Shown here: piece after piece, positions 6,654-63,686 of the stretch
Layout of the letters: the number at the start of each line of letters is the position of its first letter
Numbering within the stretch: position 1 is the first letter of the stretch
Origin: Paludibacteraceae bacterium
Lineage (GTDB): Bacteria; Bacteroidota; Bacteroidia; Bacteroidales; Paludibacteraceae
Direction of reading: 5' to 3'
Assembly: GCA_017451525.1 (NCBI GenBank)
Contig: JAFTOD010000002.1
Coordinates: 124,001 to 188,000, forward strand
Length of the DNA stretch: 64,000 bases
Translations under genes and position numbers: made by a program
Notes under the pieces: model-generated
Told to the model about the DNA's origin: nothing
Databases searched by the model: none
What the model saw: the letters and a program-made list of their open reading frames with translations, nothing else

Positions 6654-7307
6654 TCAGAGTGGTAGGTAAAGCACAAACTTCTCTTTATACCAATCGCCTG
6701 CAAAGATTTTAGATATATCGGTGGTTTCTACGTATTTTCGATATGGATGAATCTCGCCTTCGAGGTTACCGCCTTTGAGCACCATCAGACCATTAGGCAT
6801 GGCGTTCTGATGTTTGCTACTAACATTCTTGCGGATAAGTTTGACCAAGTCGCCCAGAGGCATCACGGCACGACTAATCACGAAATCGAACTTCCCCTTC
6901 TCCATCTCTGCACGTTCTTGGATACAGGTAACGTTCTTTAGTCCGATGGCATTGGCAACCTCTGTAGCTACACGAATCTTCTTACCGATACTGTCAATCA
7001 ATGTGAATTGACATTCTGGGAATAGAATCGCCAATGGAATACCAGGAAACCCGCCTCCTGTGCCTACATCGAGTAGGGTAGTACCTGGCTGAAAATGAAG
7101 CACTTTGGCAATTGCTAATGAATGGATGATATGATGTGGATATAGATTATCAATATCTTTTCGAGAGATGACATTGATTTTGGCATTCCAATCACGATAG
7201 AGTTCGCCTAATGCTATGAATTGTTGCTCTTGCAGAGGCGTCAGGGAGAAATGCTCCCTGATGCACTCTACACCAGCAATATCCAATGGATTAATCATTT
7301 CAGCCAT
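6654..7307 (-). CDS. rsmG: 16S rRNA (guanine527-N7)-methyltransferase RsmG
   Basis: Methylates G527 of 16S rRNA using S-adenosylmethionine. The 217-aa sequence has the family layout: a helical N-terminus with LTPLQEQQFIALGELYRDWNAKINVISRKD, then the SAM-binding loop LLDVGTGGGFPGIPLAILFP, and FDFVISRAV in the catalytic half. It lies nine bases after yebC, so the two are probably co-transcribed. Confidence 0.95.
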   Translation of the reverse strand: MAEMINPLDIAGVECIREHFSLTPLQEQQFIALGELYRDWNAKINVISRKDIDNLYPHHIIHSLAIAKVLHFQPGTTLLDVGTGGGFPGIPLAILFPECQFTLIDSIGKKIRVATEVANAIGLKNVTCIQERAEMEKGKFDFVISRAVMPLGDLVKLIRKNVSSKHQNAMPNGLMVLKGGNLEGEIHPYRKYVETTDISKIFAGDWYKEKFVLYLPL

Positions 7308-7316
7308 TTATTTAGA

Positions 7317-8033
7317 TTATCCCAAGTTGGTGAATACGTTTTGTACATCCTCATCTTCCTCAATGCGGTCAATGAGTTTTTGTACACTCTCCATCTCCTC
7401 GTCGCTGAGGGTCTTGGTGTCGTTAGGGATACGCACAAACTCGCATGACTGAATATCGAAGCCATTGTCCTCAAGATACTTCTGCATTTGCGAGTATTGG
7501 TTGAAGTCTCCATAGATGACGATGGTACCTTCTTCTTCATCGTGACCAAGCTCCTCTACACCAAAGTCAATAAGCTCAAGTTCGAGTTCGTCCAAGTCAA
7601 TGCCTTCTTTCGCTGAAACGGTGAAGCATGCTTTGCGGTCAAAGAGGAATTGCAGACATCCTTGTGTACCTAAGTTACCACCATGCTTGGTAAAATAACT
7701 ACGGATATTGGCTACTGTACGCATATTGTTGTCGGTAGCTGTCTCTACAAAGATAGCTACTCCGTGAGGGCCATATCCCTCATAGCAAATCTCTTTGTAA
7801 CCCTCTGAAGATTTGTCGGTTGCTTTCTTGATAGCACGCTCAATATTCTCTTTGGGCATGTTCTCTTTCTTACATTGTTGCATCAATGTACGAAGACGAG
7901 GATTGCTGTCTGGATCTGGACCACCATCGCGTGCAGCCATAGTGATTTCCTTACCCAATTTAGTAAATACACGGGCCATATGACCCCAACGTTTTAATTT
8001 TGTCGCTTTGCGATATTCAAAAGCTCTTCCCAT
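7317..8033 (-). CDS. yebC: YebC/PmpR-family protein
   Basis: A 238-aa member of the YebC/PmpR/TACO1 family. It begins MGRAFEYRKATKLKRWGHMARVF, and the KWGHMAR-like N-terminal motif and DPDSNPRLRTLMQQCK block are diagnostic. The family was annotated as a transcriptional regulator; recent work links some members to translation of difficult peptide stretches. Bacteroidota versions often carry this RAFEYRK start. It lies between the OmpA-family gene and rsmG in the same direction. Confidence 0.93.
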   Translation of the reverse strand: MGRAFEYRKATKLKRWGHMARVFTKLGKEITMAARDGGPDPDSNPRLRTLMQQCKKENMPKENIERAIKKATDKSSEGYKEICYEGYGPHGVAIFVETATDNNMRTVANIRSYFTKHGGNLGTQGCLQFLFDRKACFTVSAKEGIDLDELELELIDFGVEELGHDEEEGTIVIYGDFNQYSQMQKYLEDNGFDIQSCEFVRIPNDTKTLSDEEMESVQKLIDRIEEDEDVQNVFTNLG

Positions 8034-8059
8034 ATGTTTAATTTGATATTTATTTTTAG

Positions 8060-10666
8060 TTATTGTGCTACAGTAGTTTGTTGGATTTTGATAGAGTCGC
8101 CTTGTACATTGGCAACAGGCGCTTGGATACTATCAGCTGCAGTTGGAGCAGCTGTAGTATCTTGTTGTACGCGGTCGTAGATGATTTCAATCTTCACCTC
8201 TTCGAAAGTGATGTTGAATTCCACGCGGCGGTTCTTAGCGCGACCTGCTTTGGTCTTGTTGTCTGCAATTGGTTTGTCAGGACCATAACCATGAGCAGTC
8301 AAGCGTTCTGCTGGTACACCTTGGTTGATGAGGTAGGTACGAACAGCTTGTGCACGACGCTCAGACAGGTCAACGTTGTAGTCGTATTTACCTACGTTGT
8401 CGGTATGACCTTGTACCTCAACTAGATAGTTAGCATTGTCAATGAAAATCTTAGCAATATCATTCAATATCTTGTATGAATTCTTTTTGATAGTAGCCTT
8501 GCCATTCTCGAATTGGATACCCGACATTGCCTTCTTGAGCAAGTTACGTACTTCGCGTTTCACCTCAGGACAACCCTTGTTCTCCTTCACACCTACTACC
8601 AATGGACATTCGTCTATATAGTCATATACGCCGTCGTTGTCGGTATCAAGCAGACAACCCTTAGCATCCACAGCATGACGTCCCTCCTCTGGTGTATCAG
8701 GACATTCGTCGAGATAATCTGGTACTCCGTCAAGGTCGGTATCAATTGGACAACCAAGTGAATCAACCATACCATATGCTGCGGTTGGAGTACCAGGACA
8801 TTGGTCAATATAGTCATATACACCATCACCATCAGTGTCAAGTGGACAACCTACAGAGTCAATATATCCATAGGCTTCCACTGGTGTGCCAGGACATTGA
8901 TCCATATAGTCAAATACGCCGTCACCATCGGTGTCAATAGGACAACCATATTCATCTACATAGCCCAATGCTGCTGCTGGAGTATTGGCGCAAAGATCAA
9001 TATAATCTGGCACTTCATCGCCATCGGTATCAAGCGGACAACCTACAGTGTCAATTAAACCGTATGCAGCAGATGGAGTGAATGGGCACTCGTCGAAGTA
9101 ATCAGGAATACCATCACCATCACTATCAATAGGACAACCTACCTCATCCACGCGTACGTTGGTTGGTGTATTTGGACATGCGTCAAAGAGATCGAAGATA
9201 CCATCTTTATCAGCATCTTTATTCTTCTTAGGATTGGTTCCGACTACGATAGCAATACCAAATGATAAGTTCACACCAGGAGTCTTGTAAGGAAGTGATA
9301 ATTTACTATCCTCAGCCGCTGCAGTAGCGTAGGTGGTAGGGATGTAGTCGGTGGCTAAAGTCAGCATCAAACCATCGTAAGGAGCTAGCGACAATGCTGC
9401 TCCGATATTGCTCCAATGACCATTGATGAAGGAATATGATGCTGCCAAGTTAAACCAATTGACAGGACGGAAGGCAGCACCAAAGGTGAGTTCTTCAGTC
9501 ACAGCATTATTGTAGAAGCGCGTGCGCGAGTACAAACCTACGCCTACGCGATTATCCCAGAAATTGGCGTCAATACCAATATTGAGGTTAGCAGTAAGCA
9601 TGCGTGCTAAAGGATGTCCTTTTTTGAGATCTTTGATTTGCAGTGCATCAGTATAACCCATAAGTTCATTGGTTAGATCAGAGGTTAGGCTATCTACTTG
9701 GAAAGAACCATCATATACATAGTCGTTGTATTCTAAATCTAAACCATTAAATGTGGTATCAACGGAAAAGGCTCCTTGTGCAAGATTGGTCCAGCGGATA
9801 AATCCTAAGTCGGTTACAGATGCAGTAATTTGCAGTTGTTCGATAGGTTTGTATGTCATACCTAAATCAAATGCAGCACCTAAACCTGCTGGTTTAATCA
9901 AATCAGTAATATTTTTGCTTACCAAGGAGTTGAAGTCCATTTCTGGTAAATTCTCAATATTTTCTGGCAATTGCTCCCACATTAAAGGCGCTGCAGCGAT
10001 GATATTACCTTCTCCAGTTGCCTGTAATTGATCGTAGCCAGTAGCCACTTGCAAATCATCAATATTAGCTCCTACGTATGCTTGTCCTACCAAGAACTTG
10101 AACTTACCACCTACAGTCCATTGGTCATTGATTTTGTGTGAATATCCCAATGCAATGTCGGTGTAGGCTGTAGCATTAACTCCCACTGACAATGGACCTA
10201 CGATTCCAGAACTCAAATCGTTCAGCCCGAATAGCGATTTGCCGAGCCCAATGCCACCTATGATATGTTCAGAAATATTCACATGCACATAACCAAAATC
10301 TTTTATGCGGAAACCAAATCCTAAAAGATTGAGATATGCATCAGCATCAAATAGTACTGTATTAGGTTTTTTATCCAACCAATTTGGATTGGCATTAGGG
10401 TGCAGTGGAGTAATGGTGTTACCTGTAATAGCATCTTTGTAAATAAAATCCTGCATGGTAAAAGCATTATTACCCGCCCAAAAACTAGTATAACCGATTG
10501 CAGGGAGAGTTACGTACACCTTGCTAACTGGTTGAAAAGCAGGGTTGATAATATGACGCATAGGTGCATTTTCCAAGAAATACAGGGTGTTTACTTGTTG
10601 CGCACTAACGATAGAGGTACTCATTAGGAGAACCGCTACGAATAAATTACGAAATGTTGTTTTCAT
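8060..10666 (-). CDS. OmpA-family outer-membrane protein with TSP3 repeats
   Basis: This 868-aa protein has a signal peptide (MKTTFRNLFVAVLLMSTSIVSAQ). Residues about 25-480 form a DUF5723-like beta-barrel region beginning with the typical 'NAPMRHIINPAFQP'. Next come about seven thrombospondin type-3 calcium-binding repeats (DTDGDGVxDYxDxCPGTP pattern, residues about 490-690). A C-terminal OmpA peptidoglycan-binding domain follows (VEVQGHTDNVGKYDYNVDLS and ERRAQAVRTYL, about 730-835). A short Thr/Ala-rich end follows. It probably anchors the outer membrane to peptidoglycan. It starts 20 bases after the upstream lipoprotein gene, so the two are likely a functional pair. Confidence 0.9.
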   Translation of the reverse strand: MKTTFRNLFVAVLLMSTSIVSAQQVNTLYFLENAPMRHIINPAFQPVSKVYVTLPAIGYTSFWAGNNAFTMQDFIYKDAITGNTITPLHPNANPNWLDKKPNTVLFDADAYLNLLGFGFRIKDFGYVHVNISEHIIGGIGLGKSLFGLNDLSSGIVGPLSVGVNATAYTDIALGYSHKINDQWTVGGKFKFLVGQAYVGANIDDLQVATGYDQLQATGEGNIIAAAPLMWEQLPENIENLPEMDFNSLVSKNITDLIKPAGLGAAFDLGMTYKPIEQLQITASVTDLGFIRWTNLAQGAFSVDTTFNGLDLEYNDYVYDGSFQVDSLTSDLTNELMGYTDALQIKDLKKGHPLARMLTANLNIGIDANFWDNRVGVGLYSRTRFYNNAVTEELTFGAAFRPVNWFNLAASYSFINGHWSNIGAALSLAPYDGLMLTLATDYIPTTYATAAAEDSKLSLPYKTPGVNLSFGIAIVVGTNPKKNKDADKDGIFDLFDACPNTPTNVRVDEVGCPIDSDGDGIPDYFDECPFTPSAAYGLIDTVGCPLDTDGDEVPDYIDLCANTPAAALGYVDEYGCPIDTDGDGVFDYMDQCPGTPVEAYGYIDSVGCPLDTDGDGVYDYIDQCPGTPTAAYGMVDSLGCPIDTDLDGVPDYLDECPDTPEEGRHAVDAKGCLLDTDNDGVYDYIDECPLVVGVKENKGCPEVKREVRNLLKKAMSGIQFENGKATIKKNSYKILNDIAKIFIDNANYLVEVQGHTDNVGKYDYNVDLSERRAQAVRTYLINQGVPAERLTAHGYGPDKPIADNKTKAGRAKNRRVEFNITFEEVKIEIIYDRVQQDTTAAPTAADSIQAPVANVQGDSIKIQQTTVAQ

Positions 10667-57657: not shown

Positions 57658-58614
57658 ATGACATCGATTAGACAATTTCAGCGTTATATCTGGCTCGTTG
57701 ATTTGCTATATTCGCGGGGAGCATTAACTCGCCAGCAAATCAATGATTATTGGCAAAACGCATCGCTCAATGATGAAAATGAAGCAGCTATTCCACGGCG
57801 TACATTCTTCCGCATGAAAGATGATATTCTTATTCTGTTTGGTATTGAGATAAAATGTGTAGGCAATAAATACACAATAGCTAACCGTGATGACATCAAG
57901 AATGATGATGTCCAACATTGGTTACTGAATTCCTTTTCTGTCAGCAATCTTTTGATGGAGGGGCAATCGTTAAAAGACAGATTACTTTTAGAAGACATAC
58001 CTTCTGGCAATAAATACTTGACACAAGTGATTGATGCTATGCGGCAAAATCTAACACTACAAGTTGAGTATCAAAGTTTTAAGATGAGTGCTCCAAGAAA
58101 CTTCGAGATTGCTCCATATTGTATCAAGGTATTCAAACAACGATGGTATATTATTGGTCATCGAGAAGGCAATGATGAGGTACATTTCTATTCATTGGAT
58201 CGTGTGTTATCTATGCAAATAACCGAAAATGCTTTTAAGGTTCCTAAGAGTTTTAACGCAGATGCTTTTCTACACAACTATTATGGTGTAATGGCTGGTA
58301 CTATGCCAGCGGAGTCCGTTCTACTCCGTGTGACACCCTTCCGCGCAAACTACTTGCGCTCGCTGCCGCTCCATCACTCGCAGAAAGAGACTGAGCGCAC
58401 GGACAATTATTCCGTCTTCGAATATTGGATTGCACCCACAGCGGATTTTATTCAAGAACTCCGCTCGTTCCTTCCTGACATAATTGTCCTTCGCCCATTA
58501 TGGTTGCGTGAGAAATTCATTAATGAAGCAAAAAATATATTGGATAACTATAAAAATTATGACTATGACTTACAAAGAACGACAAAAACAGCATCAAATA
58601 AACTTGCTGAGTAA
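57658..58614 (+). CDS. WYL-domain transcriptional regulator
   Basis: A 318-aa cytoplasmic regulator. The N-terminus (RYIWLVDLLYSRGALTRQQINDYW and RRTFFRMKDDILILFG) is a winged helix-turn-helix. A linker precedes the WYL domain: LQVEYQSFKMSAPRNFEIAPYCIKVFKQRWYIIG (the RWY block corresponds to WYL). A WCX-like C-terminal part follows. WYL regulators commonly control phage-defence operons (such as BrxR and CapW). The next gene overlaps its end by 56 bases. Inverted and direct repeats at its promoter are candidate binding sites. The ATG at 57658 follows the promoter; an earlier TTG does not. Confidence 0.9.
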   Translation: MTSIRQFQRYIWLVDLLYSRGALTRQQINDYWQNASLNDENEAAIPRRTFFRMKDDILILFGIEIKCVGNKYTIANRDDIKNDDVQHWLLNSFSVSNLLMEGQSLKDRLLLEDIPSGNKYLTQVIDAMRQNLTLQVEYQSFKMSAPRNFEIAPYCIKVFKQRWYIIGHREGNDEVHFYSLDRVLSMQITENAFKVPKSFNADAFLHNYYGVMAGTMPAESVLLRVTPFRANYLRSLPLHHSQKETERTDNYSVFEYWIAPTADFIQELRSFLPDIIVLRPLWLREKFINEAKNILDNYKNYDYDLQRTTKTASNKLAE

Positions 58615-59509
58615 CCCTCGTATTTTCATCCCAGGCACAGAAGGTTACGGTGTTTTTCGGGAACGACCATACCCACACATTTTGAAAAATGGGAAAAGAA
58701 ATCTGTATCTCTCAATTACAGAAAATGAAGAAGAGGTCTGCGAGTATTTCAAAAAAAATGACATTCATTGGTGGGGTGGTAAGATAACAGGAAATCTACT
58801 ATCTTCACAAATAGCTTGTCTTAATCATTTATTTTCAATAAGAAAAGACAAAGATCTCGTACTTAAAATAATTCAAGGAATTGACCCTGATTTTGTTGAT
58901 GTATTCCAGCTCAAGAATGATAAATATCAATCACAATATATTTCTTTTGAGGTGGTTGTAAAAACTGACAATTTCATGAATGAGGGCAAACCTAAGCGCG
59001 GAGCCAGATGTACATCCATAGATGCGCTTATCATCGCACAAAGAAAAAACGGAGAGAAGTGCCTAATCCCTATTGAATGGAAATACACCGAACAAGAGAA
59101 ATCTAACAAGTTCGAAAATGAAACAAGGCATAGGCGCTACGATGAACTTATAAACGAATCACAGTATCTTCGCTCTACAGACGCAAAGTCAGACAAGACA
59201 CTATACAAAGAACCCTATTATGAATTAATGAGGCAGACACTTTGGGCTGAATTAATAGTCAAAAATGAAGCAAACAATGAAGCAAACAATTGGCATAATG
59301 TTACTGATTTTTTACATCTGCATGTCGTCCCCAATGACAATACTGCTTATAGAGGCAGGAACGGAGAAATGGAAGAAAAATGGAAATCTTGTTTAGAAGA
59401 TCCTAAGAAATACAAACTGATAGATCCTTCCGAATTATTTGAGCCAATAAAAAAAGAAGCCAAATGTCAGAAGTTAATAGATTACCTTAATGAACGTTAT
59501 TGGAAATAA
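58559..59509 (+). CDS. PD-(D/E)XK nuclease-like protein A (PGN_0703-like)
   Basis: A 316-aa protein with the PD-(D/E)XK layout: FEVVVKTDNF (Glu131), TSIDALII (Asp155) and LIPIEWKYTEQ (Glu173-x-Lys175). Upstream, LLSSQIACLNHLF (81-92) resembles the SSQ-helix typical of the PGN_0703 family of putative restriction endonucleases. ATG 58559 was chosen; it overlaps the WYL gene by 56 bases. Protein B (59611-60615) has the same motif order, so the two are distant relatives. A role in cutting DNA is inferred from motifs only. No methyltransferase partner is visible. Confidence 0.78.
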   Translation: MTMTYKERQKQHQINLLSNPRIFIPGTEGYGVFRERPYPHILKNGKRNLYLSITENEEEVCEYFKKNDIHWWGGKITGNLLSSQIACLNHLFSIRKDKDLVLKIIQGIDPDFVDVFQLKNDKYQSQYISFEVVVKTDNFMNEGKPKRGARCTSIDALIIAQRKNGEKCLIPIEWKYTEQEKSNKFENETRHRRYDELINESQYLRSTDAKSDKTLYKEPYYELMRQTLWAELIVKNEANNEANNWHNVTDFLHLHVVPNDNTAYRGRNGEMEEKWKSCLEDPKKYKLIDPSELFEPIKKEAKCQKLIDYLNERYWK

Positions 59510-59545
59510 AATTCTAAAAAATAACAATAAAGTGATTTTTCTTTA

Positions 59546-59572
59546 CGAGAGTGCCACAAGTTGGCACTCTCG
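59546..59572. promoter_or_regulatory. Perfect 11-bp inverted repeat upstream of nuclease B
   Basis: CGAGAGTGCCA (59546-59556), loop CAAGT, TGGCACTCTCG (59562-59572). It ends five bases before the -7 box at 59578, so it covers the place of the -33 region. It could be an operator or a terminator for nuclease A. Confidence 0.7.
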
Positions 59573-59577
59573 TGTTG

Positions 59578-59586
59578 TAATTTTGC
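59578..59586 (+). promoter_or_regulatory. -7 element of an internal promoter for nuclease B
   Basis: TAATTTTGC fits TAnnTTTGC. The -33 position falls inside the preceding inverted repeat and has no clean TTG at the standard distance, so the promoter may need an activator. Confidence 0.6.
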
Positions 59587-59610
59587 AGCAAATTTCAAAA
59601 TTACAGCATT

Positions 59611-60615
59611 ATGAAAAGAAAAATTTCTATCACAAACACAACAAAAGAGTCCACTAACCACCTCAAGAAAGTATTCTCTTTCCCTGAAGAAAGCAAGGGC
59701 AATTATTTTTCCACCTACACCGAAAATGTTTATGTCGGCGGTCGCAAGGCATTGACGGAAGGCAAGTTTCATGACATGTTTATGGCTGGTGACGGTCATG
59801 AACTAGAGGACTATATCGACAAGAATGGTGTACTGCACCTTGCACATGCTAAGTCAATCTATTCATCATCCATGTTGGCATACAACTTCTTCTACTGGGT
59901 GAGTCCAGAAAATCCTCTAGTACTTAATGGTACTACCTATGACAAAGTGTATTTTGAGGTAAAATTCCCCGTTCTACCAAAAGACTCTAACGGTAGTCGC
60001 AATAATCGTCCATCAAATATGGATGTACTGCTCATTAGCGATGATTGCCAAACCATATTCTGCGTTGAGAGTAAATATACCGAGCATACTCACCACCAAG
60101 CAGCTGAATTTAAGAATGCGTATTTCAAGCCCTCTTGTTACTACAAAGACAACCCATACCGAACTGCTTTTATTAAATGGGCACTCCGCTACAATGAAAA
60201 GAAGAATGGCTATTTTGCCGGTATCAAGCAGAACATCAGCCATATTATTGGCATTACCAATATCTTGCATGACGCTGATGCTTTGGCTTGGTTCAAAGCT
60301 AATAATCCATTTATTGAGTCCGAAGTGTTAGCGCAAATTAATCAGAATACCGAGATTATCTTCACCAATCTGCTATATTACTGCCCCGAAATAGGAACAG
60401 ACATCTATGGTGATATCCACGCAGAGGAAAAGAGCTATCCATATCTACTCGGCGAATTACTCTTCGACCACCTACAATGTGCATTGGACGAGCCTCTGCT
60501 CTTGTCCCGTTTCATCACGACTTATCCAGAACTCTTTGCAGAGATACAATCGCAAATGCCAAACGGACTTGCCGAATACCTTGATAACAAATATGTACTT
60601 ACTAATCATGCATAA
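59611..60615 (+). CDS. PD-(D/E)XK nuclease-like protein B
   Basis: A 334-aa cytoplasmic protein. Motifs: SSSMLAYNFFYWV (85-97), VYFEVKFPV (Glu116), SNMDVLLI (Asp138) and FCVESKYTEH (Glu153-x-Lys155). The order and spacing match nuclease A, and both end the active-site strand with KYTE. The middle and C-terminus are helical. It has its own -7 element and is followed by the DnaE-like gene one base after its stop. A DNA-cleaving role is inferred. Confidence 0.75.
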   Translation: MKRKISITNTTKESTNHLKKVFSFPEESKGNYFSTYTENVYVGGRKALTEGKFHDMFMAGDGHELEDYIDKNGVLHLAHAKSIYSSSMLAYNFFYWVSPENPLVLNGTTYDKVYFEVKFPVLPKDSNGSRNNRPSNMDVLLISDDCQTIFCVESKYTEHTHHQAAEFKNAYFKPSCYYKDNPYRTAFIKWALRYNEKKNGYFAGIKQNISHIIGITNILHDADALAWFKANNPFIESEVLAQINQNTEIIFTNLLYYCPEIGTDIYGDIHAEEKSYPYLLGELLFDHLQCALDEPLLLSRFITTYPELFAEIQSQMPNGLAEYLDNKYVLTNHA

Positions 60616-60616
60616 T

Positions 60617-62011
60617 ATGGAAAGAATAATTGCACAGAATGGAGATGAGATTATGCATATCATTCGAACATCTAAAAACACCCAAAGCGCTTGTTCACAA
60701 ATTCAAAGACAATTTGAGGTTGGTTACATAAAAGCACAACAAATTATCAATTATCTAAGTATGTCACCTCTGCAAATCCAATCTCAAAGTTCAATGTTTA
60801 ATGATCTTATTAAAATCCCCGAAGGCTTTGAGTCTTTATCACAATACTTTATCGCCAGAGTGAACGCTGGTGCTGAGTTGCGATATGGATTAGAAAGGGT
60901 GTCGTGTGACAATGCATTACATGACCGTATCGAACATGAAGTAAAACAAATCTGTGATTTGAGGTTTGAATCCTATTTTCTTTTTATTGCAGATCTTCTG
61001 CATGAGACATTTGAAAATATGAACATCTATCATGGGCCAGGTAGAAGTTCTGTCGCAGGTTCGGAGGTTGCATATTGTTTAGGGATAACAGAAATTGACC
61101 CTCTGAAATATGGACTGCTTTTTGAACGCTTTATAAATCCCATAGGAGTATCTAAAGTCCAAATAGATATTGATGTGGAATATGATGAGAGGTTGCGCAT
61201 TGTAGATTATCTGAAACAAAACTATGGAGATGATCAACTGGCTCACCTAATTGACTTGGATCTTCTTGCTCAAAAATCCGCTGTCATACAAGTTGGTAAG
61301 GTTTTAACATTTGATATAATAGGGCTTCGAATATTAAGTATAATGAAAGAGTGCTTAAAAAACATTGAGCACAAGTATGGTAGTGAGATCACGAAATCTG
61401 CAATGAATCCTCCGAAAGATGACCCGCAGACATTCCGCCTATTTCAGGAGGCTCATACTTTTGGTGTGTTCTACTTTGAATCGGATGAAATGCGCAGGTA
61501 TCTAAAGATATTGCAACCTTCTACATTTGAAGAACTTATTGCACTAAATACCATGTATCGTCCAAGAATAATAGATTGCATTGACGGATATACAAAGCGA
61601 AAGCATGGATTGGAAGCGATTACCTATTATCACCCAATTATGGAGAAGTACTTAAAAGAAACCTACGGTGTTACCATCTATCAAGAACAACTAATGTTGC
61701 TCAGTCAGGAAATTGCGAACTACACGCCTGAGGAGAGTGATTTATTAGCAAGGGCTATTTGCCATCAGAGACTAACTCAATCAAAACCTGCTTGGAAAGA
61801 AAAATTTATTAGAGGTGGTATGGAAAATGGATATACGGAAGAATTTCTTGAGAAAATTTGGAGAGATTGGATGAGATGTGGTAATTATCTCTTCAACAAA
61901 TCTCATGCAGTTTGCTATACATGGCTTGCGTATAAGATGGCATATCTAAAAGCGCATTATCCTGAGGAGTTTATGCAAGCCTATTTTACTATTAACGACA
62001 AAGCCATATAA
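60617..62011 (+). CDS. FtsK-gamma-like wHTH fused to a minimal DnaE-like polymerase core
   Basis: A 464-aa protein. Residues 21-48 (SQIQRQFEVGYIKAQQIINYL) match the FtsK gamma winged helix, where E. coli has VQRQFRIGYNRAARIIEQM. Residues 66-455 match DNA polymerase III alpha. Matching blocks are GPGRSSVAGSEVAY (140-153), DPLKYGLLFERFINP (161-175), VQIDID (181-186), TFDIIGLR (231-238), GVFYFES (283-289), YGVTIYQEQ (350-358) and FNKSHAVCY (426-434). The PHP domain and about 130 residues between GKVL and TFDIIG are missing. Q182 replaces the first catalytic Asp. D184 and D233 remain. A second ATG lies 9 bases earlier, at 60608. Role unknown. Confidence 0.8.
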   Translation: MERIIAQNGDEIMHIIRTSKNTQSACSQIQRQFEVGYIKAQQIINYLSMSPLQIQSQSSMFNDLIKIPEGFESLSQYFIARVNAGAELRYGLERVSCDNALHDRIEHEVKQICDLRFESYFLFIADLLHETFENMNIYHGPGRSSVAGSEVAYCLGITEIDPLKYGLLFERFINPIGVSKVQIDIDVEYDERLRIVDYLKQNYGDDQLAHLIDLDLLAQKSAVIQVGKVLTFDIIGLRILSIMKECLKNIEHKYGSEITKSAMNPPKDDPQTFRLFQEAHTFGVFYFESDEMRRYLKILQPSTFEELIALNTMYRPRIIDCIDGYTKRKHGLEAITYYHPIMEKYLKETYGVTIYQEQLMLLSQEIANYTPEESDLLARAICHQRLTQSKPAWKEKFIRGGMENGYTEEFLEKIWRDWMRCGNYLFNKSHAVCYTWLAYKMAYLKAHYPEEFMQAYFTINDKAI

Positions 62012-62060
62012 CATATGGAATGATTCAAAAGGAACTGGAAGTGATTTCAACATCCTATCA

Positions 62061-62236
62061 CTTCGGCACAATCTTCGGCACGAAGAAAAAAAATAACAAA
62101 AAATCACTCAAGCGGGAGGCGTTGGTAATCAACACCTTCCACTTGCTTTAAGTACCATATTATAACAAAATTTACAAATCTTCGGCACAAGTTCCCTTCC
62201 GCGCCGAAGATTTTTGCAGCATTATTATAGAGACAC
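62061..62236. repeat. Dispersed 176-bp intergenic repeat, copy B
   Basis: Nearly identical to copy A at 2028-2203, including CTTCGGCAC ends, the CAAGCGGGAGGCGTTG stem and the ATTATTATAGAGACAC end. The copies differ at scattered sites, so neither is a fresh duplication. The stretch 62240-62335 after it has loose 10- to 12-bp repeats (AGAAAGCC/CGAAAGCC, AGATGTCCT/AGATGTGCT, TTCAGCAC twice). Confidence 0.88.
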
Positions 62237-62366
62237 GTTTATAGAAAGCCACCGAAAGCCCACAGATGTCCTAGAGATGTGCTATCGTGGTCCCGAAACT
62301 TGCAGGTAACTTTCAGCACAACATTCAGCACCCAAAAACTTTTTTCAAAAAAATACACCTAAAAAC

Positions 62367-62398
62367 TTGCATAGTTCACAAAAATATAGTAATTTTGC
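62367..62398 (+). promoter_or_regulatory. Promoter of the DUF4143 ATPase gene
   Basis: TTGC at 62367-62370, 19 bp, TAATTTTGC at 62390-62398. Confidence 0.85.
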
Positions 62399-62404
62399 AC
62401 CGAG

Positions 62405-62463
62405 TTTGAGAATTTGGGAATGATACTTTGAGAATTTGGGAGAGAATGTTTGAGAATTTTGGA
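62405..62463. repeat. Three 22-bp leader repeats
   Basis: TTTGAGAATTTGGGA starts at 62405, 62427 and (with TTTTGGA) 62449, exactly 22 bp apart, in the leader of the ATPase gene. 22 bp is twice the 11-bp unit of the other arrays. Confidence 0.9.
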
Positions 62464-62492
62464 TTAGACAAAAAACTATAAATCAATTGTAT

Positions 62493-63686
62493 ATGATAGT
62501 TCGCTCACAATTAAGTACAATTATTGAACGTATGCAAGAACCCAGAAAATGTATTCAAGTTCTTGCAGGTCCACGTCAAGTAGGAAAAACTACACTCATC
62601 AAGCAATTTTTAGCACAATGCACTATACCTGCTACCAGTCTAAATGCAGATGAAGTAGCTACAAATAATCGTGCATGGATATCAGAGAAATGGCAATCCG
62701 TTCGTATTCGTATGCAATTGGAGGGGCAACAAGAGCATATACTGATTATCGACGAGGTGCAAAAAATAGACAATTGGAGCGAAATTGTCAAAAAAGAATG
62801 GGACTACGACACCTTTCATGATATCAATATCAAACTGATTTTGTTAGGCAGTAGTCGTTTGCTACTCAAAGACGGCTTAACGGAGAGTTTGATGGGACGC
62901 TTTGAGCTGATTCGTGTGCCACATTGGTCCTACACCGAAATGCACGAAGCATTCAACTTTTCAATTGAACAGTACATCTATTTTGGTGGATACCCTGGCG
63001 CTGCCCCCTATGTCAATAACGAGAAACGTTGGCGTCAATATATGCGAGATTCTATTATTGAGCCAGCTATTAATCGCGATGTGTTAATGACCAAACGCGT
63101 ACTTAAACCTGCTCTAATGAGACAACTATTCGAAATTGGATGTGCGTATAGTGGCGAAATTATTGCATTCAATAAGATTATTGGTCAATTAAATGAGGCG
63201 GGAAACACATCCACCTTAGCTAATTATCTCAAGACTTTAGATGAAGCATCTCTATTAGGAGGATTGCAGCGGTATGCAGTTGACTTTGCAAGACGCTATC
63301 AGTCGATTCCAAAATATCAAGTCTATAATACCGCTCTATTGAGTTATTTTCAAGGTCGAGGATTTAAGACCGAACAACTTGATCCAACTCGTTGGGGGCG
63401 TTGGGTGGAAAGTGCTATAGGTGCACATCTCATCAACCATGCGCAGGAGCAGGATTATGACCTGTATTATTGGAGAGACCACAATGATGAAGTGGATTTT
63501 ATCATCCGTCAAACAGGAAATCGATTGATGGCATTAGAAGTGAAAAGTGGTCACCGACAAGATAATAGTGGTCTTCATGTTTTTGCTGACAAATTTCATC
63601 CAGAGCACTCACTTGTGGTTGGTGGCGATGCTTTTCCAACAGAATTATTTTTCTCAACTCCGATAGAACGATTCTTATCCTTGTAA
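62493..63686 (+). CDS. AAA ATPase with DUF4143 domain
   Basis: A 397-aa protein. Walker A LAGPRQVGKTTLIKQF and Walker B HILIIDEVQK are in the AAA_14 domain, with LLGSSRLLLK as sensor-like block. A linker follows (FGGYPGAAPYV and RDSIIEPAINRDVLMTKR). The DUF4143 end carries a PD-(D/E)XK-like DEVDFIIRQTGNRLMALEVKSG. ATG 62493 is preferred over a TTG two codons earlier. Such ATPases are frequent in Bacteroidota, mobile-like and of unknown function. It is bracketed by repeats B and C. Confidence 0.9.
   Translation: MIVRSQLSTIIERMQEPRKCIQVLAGPRQVGKTTLIKQFLAQCTIPATSLNADEVATNNRAWISEKWQSVRIRMQLEGQQEHILIIDEVQKIDNWSEIVKKEWDYDTFHDINIKLILLGSSRLLLKDGLTESLMGRFELIRVPHWSYTEMHEAFNFSIEQYIYFGGYPGAAPYVNNEKRWRQYMRDSIIEPAINRDVLMTKRVLKPALMRQLFEIGCAYSGEIIAFNKIIGQLNEAGNTSTLANYLKTLDEASLLGGLQRYAVDFARRYQSIPKYQVYNTALLSYFQGRGFKTEQLDPTRWGRWVESAIGAHLINHAQEQDYDLYYWRDHNDEVDFIIRQTGNRLMALEVKSGHRQDNSGLHVFADKFHPEHSLVVGGDAFPTELFFSTPIERFLSL

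Follow-up and report, generated by a model that had tools for sequence, protein, structure and literature searches.

A probably polymerase-dead DnaE relative with a GyrA-like head in a nuclease operon of Bacteroidales, and its possible role as bait

The nuclease operon and its mini-DnaE

The window, a 64,000-nucleotide stretch of DNA from a Paludibacteraceae bacterium (contig JAFTOD010000002.1), contains four co-directional genes that encode a WYL regulator, two PD-(D/E)XK nucleases (REase1 and REase2) and, last in the order, a DnaE relative (mini-DnaE). A single base separates the REase2 stop codon from the ATG of the mini-DnaE, and the four genes are presumably expressed as one transcript. 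The genes and the parts of the mini-DnaE are located as follows.

57658..58614 (+), WYL/WCX-domain transcriptional regulator that opens the presumed operon (Pfam WYL 2.6e-12, WCX 5.1e-9; PADLOC WYL 2.4e-29)
58565..59509 (+), REase1, PD-(D/E)XK nuclease of the REase-ARP family (Pfam REase-ARP 2.7e-43, PDDEXK_13 1e-20; the ATG at 58565 is the chosen start, with an alternative ATG at 58559, and the scanned stretch was 58571-59509)
59611..60615 (+), REase2, second PD-(D/E)XK nuclease, with D138, E153 and K155 present (Pfam REase-ARP 2.5e-12; alignment)
60617..62011 (+), mini-DnaE, 464 residues, fusion of a GyrA-derived stub and a probably polymerase-dead DnaE core (ORF list, Pfam, alignment)
60617..60754 (+), head, residues 1-46, most likely a GyrA/ParC-derived remnant, earlier described as FtsK gamma (GyrA versus FtsK profiles)
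60809..61303 (+), DnaE palm, residues 65-229, equivalent to E. coli DnaE 281-448 (alignment)
61160..61162 (+), codon of Gln182, at the site of the catalytic D401 residue (alignment)
61304..62008 (+), DnaE fingers downstream of the thumb deletion, residues 230-464, equivalent to E. coli DnaE 552-794 (alignment)

REase1 and REase2 score 149 and 47.4 bits, respectively, with the REase-ARP profile (PF22558), above its cut-off of 27. Pfam names this family for an association with 'ARP'; the operons described here instead associate the nucleases with pieces of DnaE, GyrA and DnaB. No paper using the term REase-ARP was found in the open-licence literature. Among the five window proteins scanned with Pfam and NCBIfam (57658-63686), no DNA methyltransferase partner, as a restriction-modification system would have, was found. 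The mini-DnaE, REase1 and REase2 match no PADLOC family, and the only PADLOC matches among the five proteins are those of the generic WYL regulator and a neighboring ATPase. This AAA/DUF4143 ATPase is encoded downstream (62493-63686, +) and matches the PADLOC candidate defence family PDC-S01 with an E-value of 9.4e-176. ATPases judged by eye to be N-terminally similar adjoin nuclease genes at two related loci, L042 (12235-13398, opposite strand) and L047 (7322-8533).

The open reading frame of the mini-DnaE corresponds exactly to window positions 60617..62011. The Pfam domains DNA_pol3_alpha (E 1.7e-40) and DNA_pol3_finger (E 7.2e-43) span residues 78-405, which bears out the palm and fingers assignment of a preliminary description made from the DNA letters. 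The mini-DnaE aligns to residues 281-448 and 552-794 of E. coli DnaE and leaves residues 22-280, 449-551 and 795-1160 unmatched; an 18-residue match at the start of E. coli DnaE is taken as spurious. The PHP domain, whose loss had been noted before, is absent together with the thumb and the C-terminal third. The deletion between the palm and fingers parts is also present as described, but its size had been overestimated at about 130 residues and is 103 residues in E. coli numbering and ~114-121 in the host DnaE. The DnaE entries 2hpi/3e0d of the PDB are among the hits.

Comparison with E. coli DnaE places the Q182 residue of the mini-DnaE at D401, in agreement with the earlier reading of a Gln in place of the first catalytic Asp. 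D184, D186 and D233 are kept at the positions of D403, D405 and D555, and the GPGR.S, YQEQ and FNKSHA motifs, the last with K758, are retained. The mini-DnaE is probably dead as a polymerase. Its frame remains open for 70 codons further upstream, inside REase2 (window 60407-60616), and the mini-DnaE frames of the sister loci L034 and L079 are likewise open upstream into REase2 (534 aa).

Origin of the head

The head was initially described as an FtsK-gamma-like winged helix that reads KOPS. A resemblance to FtsK gamma does exist. The Pfam FtsK_gamma profile (PF09397) matches the window protein with an E-value of 3.9e-5 and 23.7 bits, below the cut-off of 30.6 bits, over 28 residues that correspond to profile positions 17-44 of the 63-residue domain. 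Among public profiles applied to the window protein alone, FtsK_gamma outperforms the NCBIfam gyrA models, which give E-values of 0.007 and 0.017 for the head alone, and there is no Pfam gyrase match. The L039 protein similarly matches Pfam FtsK_gamma at 0.03 and no Pfam gyrase profile. In an FtsK_gamma scan of its own genome, the window protein reaches 25.7 bits and the genuine FtsK 84.4 bits.

The identity of the head as FtsK gamma, in contrast to the resemblance, did not withstand comparison with its relatives. The head is homologous to part of the C-terminal half of free-standing 223-250 aa proteins from eight sister operons (phmmer, 2e-12 to 3e-10). Profiles built from 20 GyrA and 31 FtsK sequences of the order give the window head 21.4 bits as GyrA (residues 5-45) and 16.3 bits as FtsK (residues 20-49), and the eight full-length GyrA-like proteins 29.5-46.9 bits as GyrA over 78-88 residues and 2.1-13.1 bits as FtsK (seven listed); 19 of the 20 GyrA sequences had been chosen for their top similarity to the GyrA-like family, which biases these scores towards GyrA. 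With the same similarity-selected GyrA set, a reverse search from the full-length GyrA-like proteins recovers 20/20 GyrA sequences at E <= 1.3e-10 and FtsK at 0.42 at best. The Pfam results are free of this selection bias, yet agree with GyrA: DNA_topoisoIV and FtsK_gamma match the GyrA-like protein of L037 at 1e-8 and 0.0023, respectively, and that of L041 at 2.6e-7 and 0.011. NCBIfam topoisomerase/GyrA models are the top matches in all four GyrA-like proteins scanned, with E-values down to 1.9e-11. At E <= 1e-6, the GyrA-like family alignment has matches in 298 of the 393 genomes of the order; most of those listed lie within open frames of 820-940 aa, the size anticipated for GyrA. In a PDB search with this alignment, 35 of the 37 matches are gyrase or topoisomerase IV structures (best E 3.2e-6). 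A profile of the heads only leaves little between the two families (E 1.3e-5 for the best GyrA and 2e-4 for the best FtsK), so the case for a GyrA origin is carried by the full-length relatives. On these sequence comparisons, the head is most likely a stub derived from GyrA/ParC, the A subunit of gyrase/topoisomerase IV; this origin is well supported, and the FtsK-gamma head was set aside.

The likeness to GyrA/ParC concerns a fragment only. The GyrA-like proteins and the heads align to about residues 367-457 of GyrA, and the window head keeps only ~41 of the roughly 85 aligned GyrA-family residues. Since the pieces start at about residue 367, they lack the catalytic tyrosine region (E. coli Tyr122 lies far outside). 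An AlphaFold model of one sister GyrA-like protein has a mean pLDDT of 45.9 and is unusable. The N-terminal ~110 residues of the GyrA-like proteins (L035:11824-12492 and relatives) show good conservation within this group and are not part of the gyrase matches; no other convincing match was found for them in Pfam, NCBIfam and PDB searches.

CcdB is the best-known protein poison of the GyrA region concerned, in which the GyrA14 fragment presumably also lies. In excerpts from two studies, GyrA14 is a GyrA fragment bound by CcdB (PMC9491731, PMC8814602), and the GyrA R462C mutation abolishes CcdB binding (PMC8814602). The residue at E. coli GyrA R462 is Pro in all eight GyrA-like proteins and is absent from 5/5 heads, and a simple CcdB decoy was rejected on these grounds.

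Sister operons and history of the DnaE pieces

A REase2 scan of genome contigs yielded 25 loci, and whole-genome searches added L030 and L079-L082. The loci derive from MAGs or species genomes, except for the E. coli reference sequences and the viral contigs. Seventeen operons in 17 records, all from Bacteroidales, were counted (the window, L034-L044, L079-L082 and L030); L026-L029 and L031 were left out as duplicates of L034, L035, L036, L038 and L046. A DnaE derivative is present in 17/17 operons, a count that describes this clade and not all REase-ARP nucleases, given that the loci were found via REase2 or the head. In nine operons (L035-L038 and L040-L044), a DnaE derivative and REase2 form one in-frame fusion, and in L081, about the first 64 residues of REase2 are fused to a head-PHP-DnaE protein. 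L040, L041 and L043 contain two DnaE derivatives each. GyrA derivatives are found in 14 operons, as fused heads in six (window, L034, L079, L080, L039 and L081) and as separate proteins in eight (L035, L036, L037, L040, L041, L043, L030 and L082); none was seen in L038, L042 and L044. DnaB derivatives occur in three operons (L035-L037), and the 818-residue protein of L037 is arranged in the order REase2, degenerate DnaE, DnaB_C piece and DnaB_N. A regulator gene accompanies 13 of the 17 operons (WYL in seven and Xre in six, that of L030 judged by eye), and in L039, L040, L043 and L081, the contig starts at or close to the beginning of the operon.

Within the genus, 17 of 178 genomes have a match to REase2 by alignment or sequence, a set that differs from the 17 operons, and within the family sample, nine of 200 do. 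In the phylum sample, only its own genome is matched out of 395 (E <= 1e-10). From these counts, the nuclease is narrowly spread. Related nucleases without a replication piece are found at 13 further loci (L045-L055, L032 and L033); in L032, an ordinary 840-aa GyrA gene is located ~5 kb away. L056 is a fragment located at the end of a contig. In L049-L053 (e.g. L050:9163-9876), a conserved 224-237 aa gene lies just upstream of a divergent REase2 relative, and the one copy scanned has no Pfam match. In L057 and L058 (Kiritimatiellae/Verrucomicrobia), a REase is paired with a short DnaE in which the three Asp residues are all intact. This short second DnaE (L057:944-3406, 820 aa; L058:264-2582, 772 aa) has a REase-ARP-like nuclease and a histidine-phosphatase-like gene in its vicinity, and both genomes hold a second DnaE-like gene.

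None of the nine complete mini- and short DnaEs of the clade that were aligned retains D401, which has given way to Q, Q, Q, L, V, T, T, K and K, and four of them have lost D555 as well (N, N, H and Q). D403 and D405 are kept in all nine, which also carry Ser at E. coli G363; R709 is replaced by Ala in the three window-type proteins. The REase2-fused DnaEs have lost most fingers motifs and the catalytic Asp. In 3/3 separate DnaB_C proteins, the Walker A Lys residue is changed to Arg (GRT, GRT and ERT versus GKT in E. coli). The D/E/K residues of REase2 are intact in 12 of the 14 operon copies that span the motif, a tally without L081, which lacks that part, and without L030 and L082, which carry other REases. 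The catalytic E and K residues are gone in L079 and L080, which suggests that dead copies can arise from the nuclease as well. In these two loci, part of the N-terminal half of REase2 is missing (L079:5522-6352 and L080:512-1342), and the gene still lies beside the mini-DnaE.

The window-type architecture recurs in L034 (93% identity), L079 (95%) and L080 (cut by the contig end). dN/dS values, calculated by the Nei-Gojobori method with an in-house script, are 0.215 (window-L034), 0.251 (window-L079) and 0.262 (L034-L079) for the window-type mini-DnaEs and 0.09-0.22 with the partial L080 sequence. The window-L034 pair differs by 35.0 synonymous changes over 280.8 sites and 32.0 nonsynonymous changes over 1111.2 sites. 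Values of 0.12-0.34 were obtained for the other mini-DnaEs and 0.324 for the 881-aa L039-L081 pair. The mini-DnaE genes are under purifying selection, and this selection, together with frames that are open across species, disfavors a pseudogene reading. The GyrA-like proteins give 0.07-0.31 where defined, and 0.51 on three changes for L035-L036. The REase2::DnaE fusions give 0.14-0.27 in L035-L037 and, on few changes, 0.37-0.75 among the very close L040/L041/L043. The host genome contains a separate 1320-aa DnaE on another contig, to which the fingers of the mini-DnaE are 51% identical. A frameshifted or misassembled full-length DnaE was rejected on the basis of the separate host DnaE, the recurring architecture and the purifying selection; the preliminary description had named frameshifted DnaE fragments among the homologues as a refuting outcome.

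A maximum-likelihood DnaE tree was constructed from 401 columns with 30 Bacteroidales host DnaEs, 30 phage DnaEs, the seven mini-DnaEs, L039/L081 and L057/L058. The seven mini-DnaEs and L039/L081 form one clade (support 100) that groups with 28 phage DnaEs (support 81) and then with L057/L058 (71). This clade is placed apart from the 30 host DnaEs and phage L104 and L105 (split support 71; long branches). A phage origin of the DnaE pieces would be compatible with the tree, whose deep supports are modest and whose branches are long. L039/L081 keep the PHP domain and the thumb and are nested between two thumbless groups. The junctions of the thumb deletion extend from host DnaE residue 548 to 663-670 in the window group and from ~523-531 to 637-673 in the L030/L040 group, positions that are approximate as the alignment ends overlap. 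Because the junctions differ and the thumb-containing L039/L081 nest between the groups, the thumb appears, most simply, to have been lost twice.

Viral contigs contain at least 80 loci with DnaE relatives. Both DnaE halves occur in 72 of their ORFs, separated by 63-158 residues that have no counterpart in the window protein; at other viral loci, the halves reside in separate ORFs (e.g. L164, L168 and L178). The window protein has no pattern match in the viral contigs, and no REase2 relatives were found in the viral contigs, plasmids or phages searched. One viral contig carries two tandem DnaE genes (L128:3341-7027 and 7147-9783).

Possible function of the presumably dead replication pieces

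The mini-DnaE, as a polymerase-dead DnaE stump with a GyrA-derived stub, is tentatively read as a subunit that serves a nuclease-based anti-invader operon as bait or sensor. It is also conceivable, though somewhat doubtful, that the operons represent a new kind of immune operon in which dead DnaE, GyrA and DnaB copies form a bait panel that is wired to PD-(D/E)XK nucleases and tripped by an invader seizing the replisome. The replication-protein pieces would present surfaces that are bound by a phage or plasmid takeover factor or by a disturbed replication complex. Binding would release the partner nucleases to cleave DNA of the invader or the host, and the WYL (or Xre) protein would hold the operon low until it is needed. 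Dead copies could be engaged in this manner without joining replication themselves.

Several features support the bait reading. The enzyme function is probably removed and the fold region kept in each kind of piece (D401 in DnaE, Walker A in DnaB and the catalytic region in GyrA), and the DnaE pieces, and once a DnaB piece, are fused to or located beside PD-(D/E)XK nucleases. Intact REase2 residues in most copies, the frequent regulator gene and the PDC-S01 neighbor point in the same direction. Mimicry fits better than recruitment of one activity because DnaE, GyrA and DnaB share little but the replication process. The two putative thumb losses would constitute independent trimming of DnaE towards the same core, which favors bait. 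The earlier suggestion that an inactive polymerase fold serves as a scaffold is likewise supported by the replacement of D401 throughout the clade, the loss of PHP and thumb in the window type and the purifying selection. Other features weaken the bait reading. The mini-DnaEs form their own clade apart from the host DnaEs, which is odd for a copy of a host target, and the short DnaE of L057/L058 with its three Asp residues fits a dead bait poorly. L079 and L080 contain a REase2 without E and K, 13 nuclease loci lack the pieces, the changed R462 site speaks against CcdB as a ligand in its usual mode, and PADLOC recognizes only the generic WYL regulator and the ATPase. To our knowledge, no phage factor that binds mini-DnaEs and no defence activity of the operons is known.

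A 2026 survey of bacterial polymerases, in the excerpts available, describes inactive Y- and X-family polymerases, calls the PHP domain universally present in the C family, describes no polymerase-dead C-family protein and discards truncated or strongly diverged sequences before tree construction (PMC12926913). ImuB/iPolY and dead-site PolX in the same excerpts resemble the mini-DnaE in keeping a polymerase fold without catalysis, but belong to the Y and X families, whereas the protein described here is a C-family relative beside nucleases (PMC12926913). The excerpted main text of a BREX survey (PMC12839542) contains no whole-word 'ARP', 'DnaE' or 'decoy'. No such operon was found in a search of the open-licence literature for decoys, inactive or defence-linked DnaE and REase-ARP. 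In that literature, the combination of a C-family relative lacking PHP, thumb and D401, beside or fused to nucleases, with GyrA and DnaB fragments is undescribed. The newness lies in the operon composition; taken by itself, the protein would count as a variant among inactivated polymerases. Decoys are carried by immune receptors of plants, and if the bait reading is true, bacteria would guard the replisome with dead copies of its parts, and each operon would point to replication proteins attacked by invaders of these gut bacteria. The combination of replication-protein pieces and nucleases is directly testable even without the bait mechanism.

A less likely function than bait is targeting, in which primer-template DNA or a replisome partner is still bound by the palm-fingers core, which directs the nucleases to invader forks without sensing a foreign protein. 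The in-frame fusion of DnaE to REase2 in 9/17 operons and to the 64-residue REase2 piece in L081, and the FNKSHA motif with K758 and the D403/D405 residues of the window protein, favor targeting. The thumb and C-terminal domains of DnaE hold duplex DNA and the clamp, and both are gone; the fused versions also lack most fingers motifs and the catalytic Asp, and targeting leaves the GyrA and DnaB pieces unexplained.

It is quite unlikely that the fragments inhibit host or phage replication in a dominant-negative manner, with the nucleases as the second arm of an abortive response. DnaE, DnaB and GyrA are all essential for replication, and the pieces lack catalytic residues or regions, as a poison might. 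DnaE, however, joins the replisome by its C-terminal region, which the DnaE pieces lack, and the nuclease fusions suggest control rather than a separate toxin.

The motifs retained in the window protein (GPGR.S, D403, D405, YQEQ and FNKSHA) could alternatively form a palm/fingers pocket that binds dNTP or a primer end and reports pool changes during infection. Such a sensor is improbable, as the pocket is altered by Ser at G363 in the nine clade members and Ala at R709 in the three window-type proteins, the motifs erode further in the REase2-fused versions, and GyrA or DnaB pieces would not be needed.

A view of the pieces as functionless relics, broken replication genes in a rapidly rearranging nuclease island, draws on the variable, trimmed and shuffled architectures (the 64-aa REase2 fusion of L081 and the eroded REase2 of L079/L080) and on the higher dN/dS values of the close L040/L041/L043 fusions. 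It is rendered very improbable by the excess of synonymous changes between the window and L034 and by the frames that are open across species. Least probable, by a small margin, is an inactive polymerase scaffold targeted by a KOPS-reading FtsK-gamma winged helix, since the Pfam and own-genome FtsK_gamma scores that favor it, in proteins without a Pfam gyrase match, stay below the family cut-off over only 28 residues and far below the genuine FtsK of the genome, and the full-length relatives of the head are GyrA-like over 78-88 residues.
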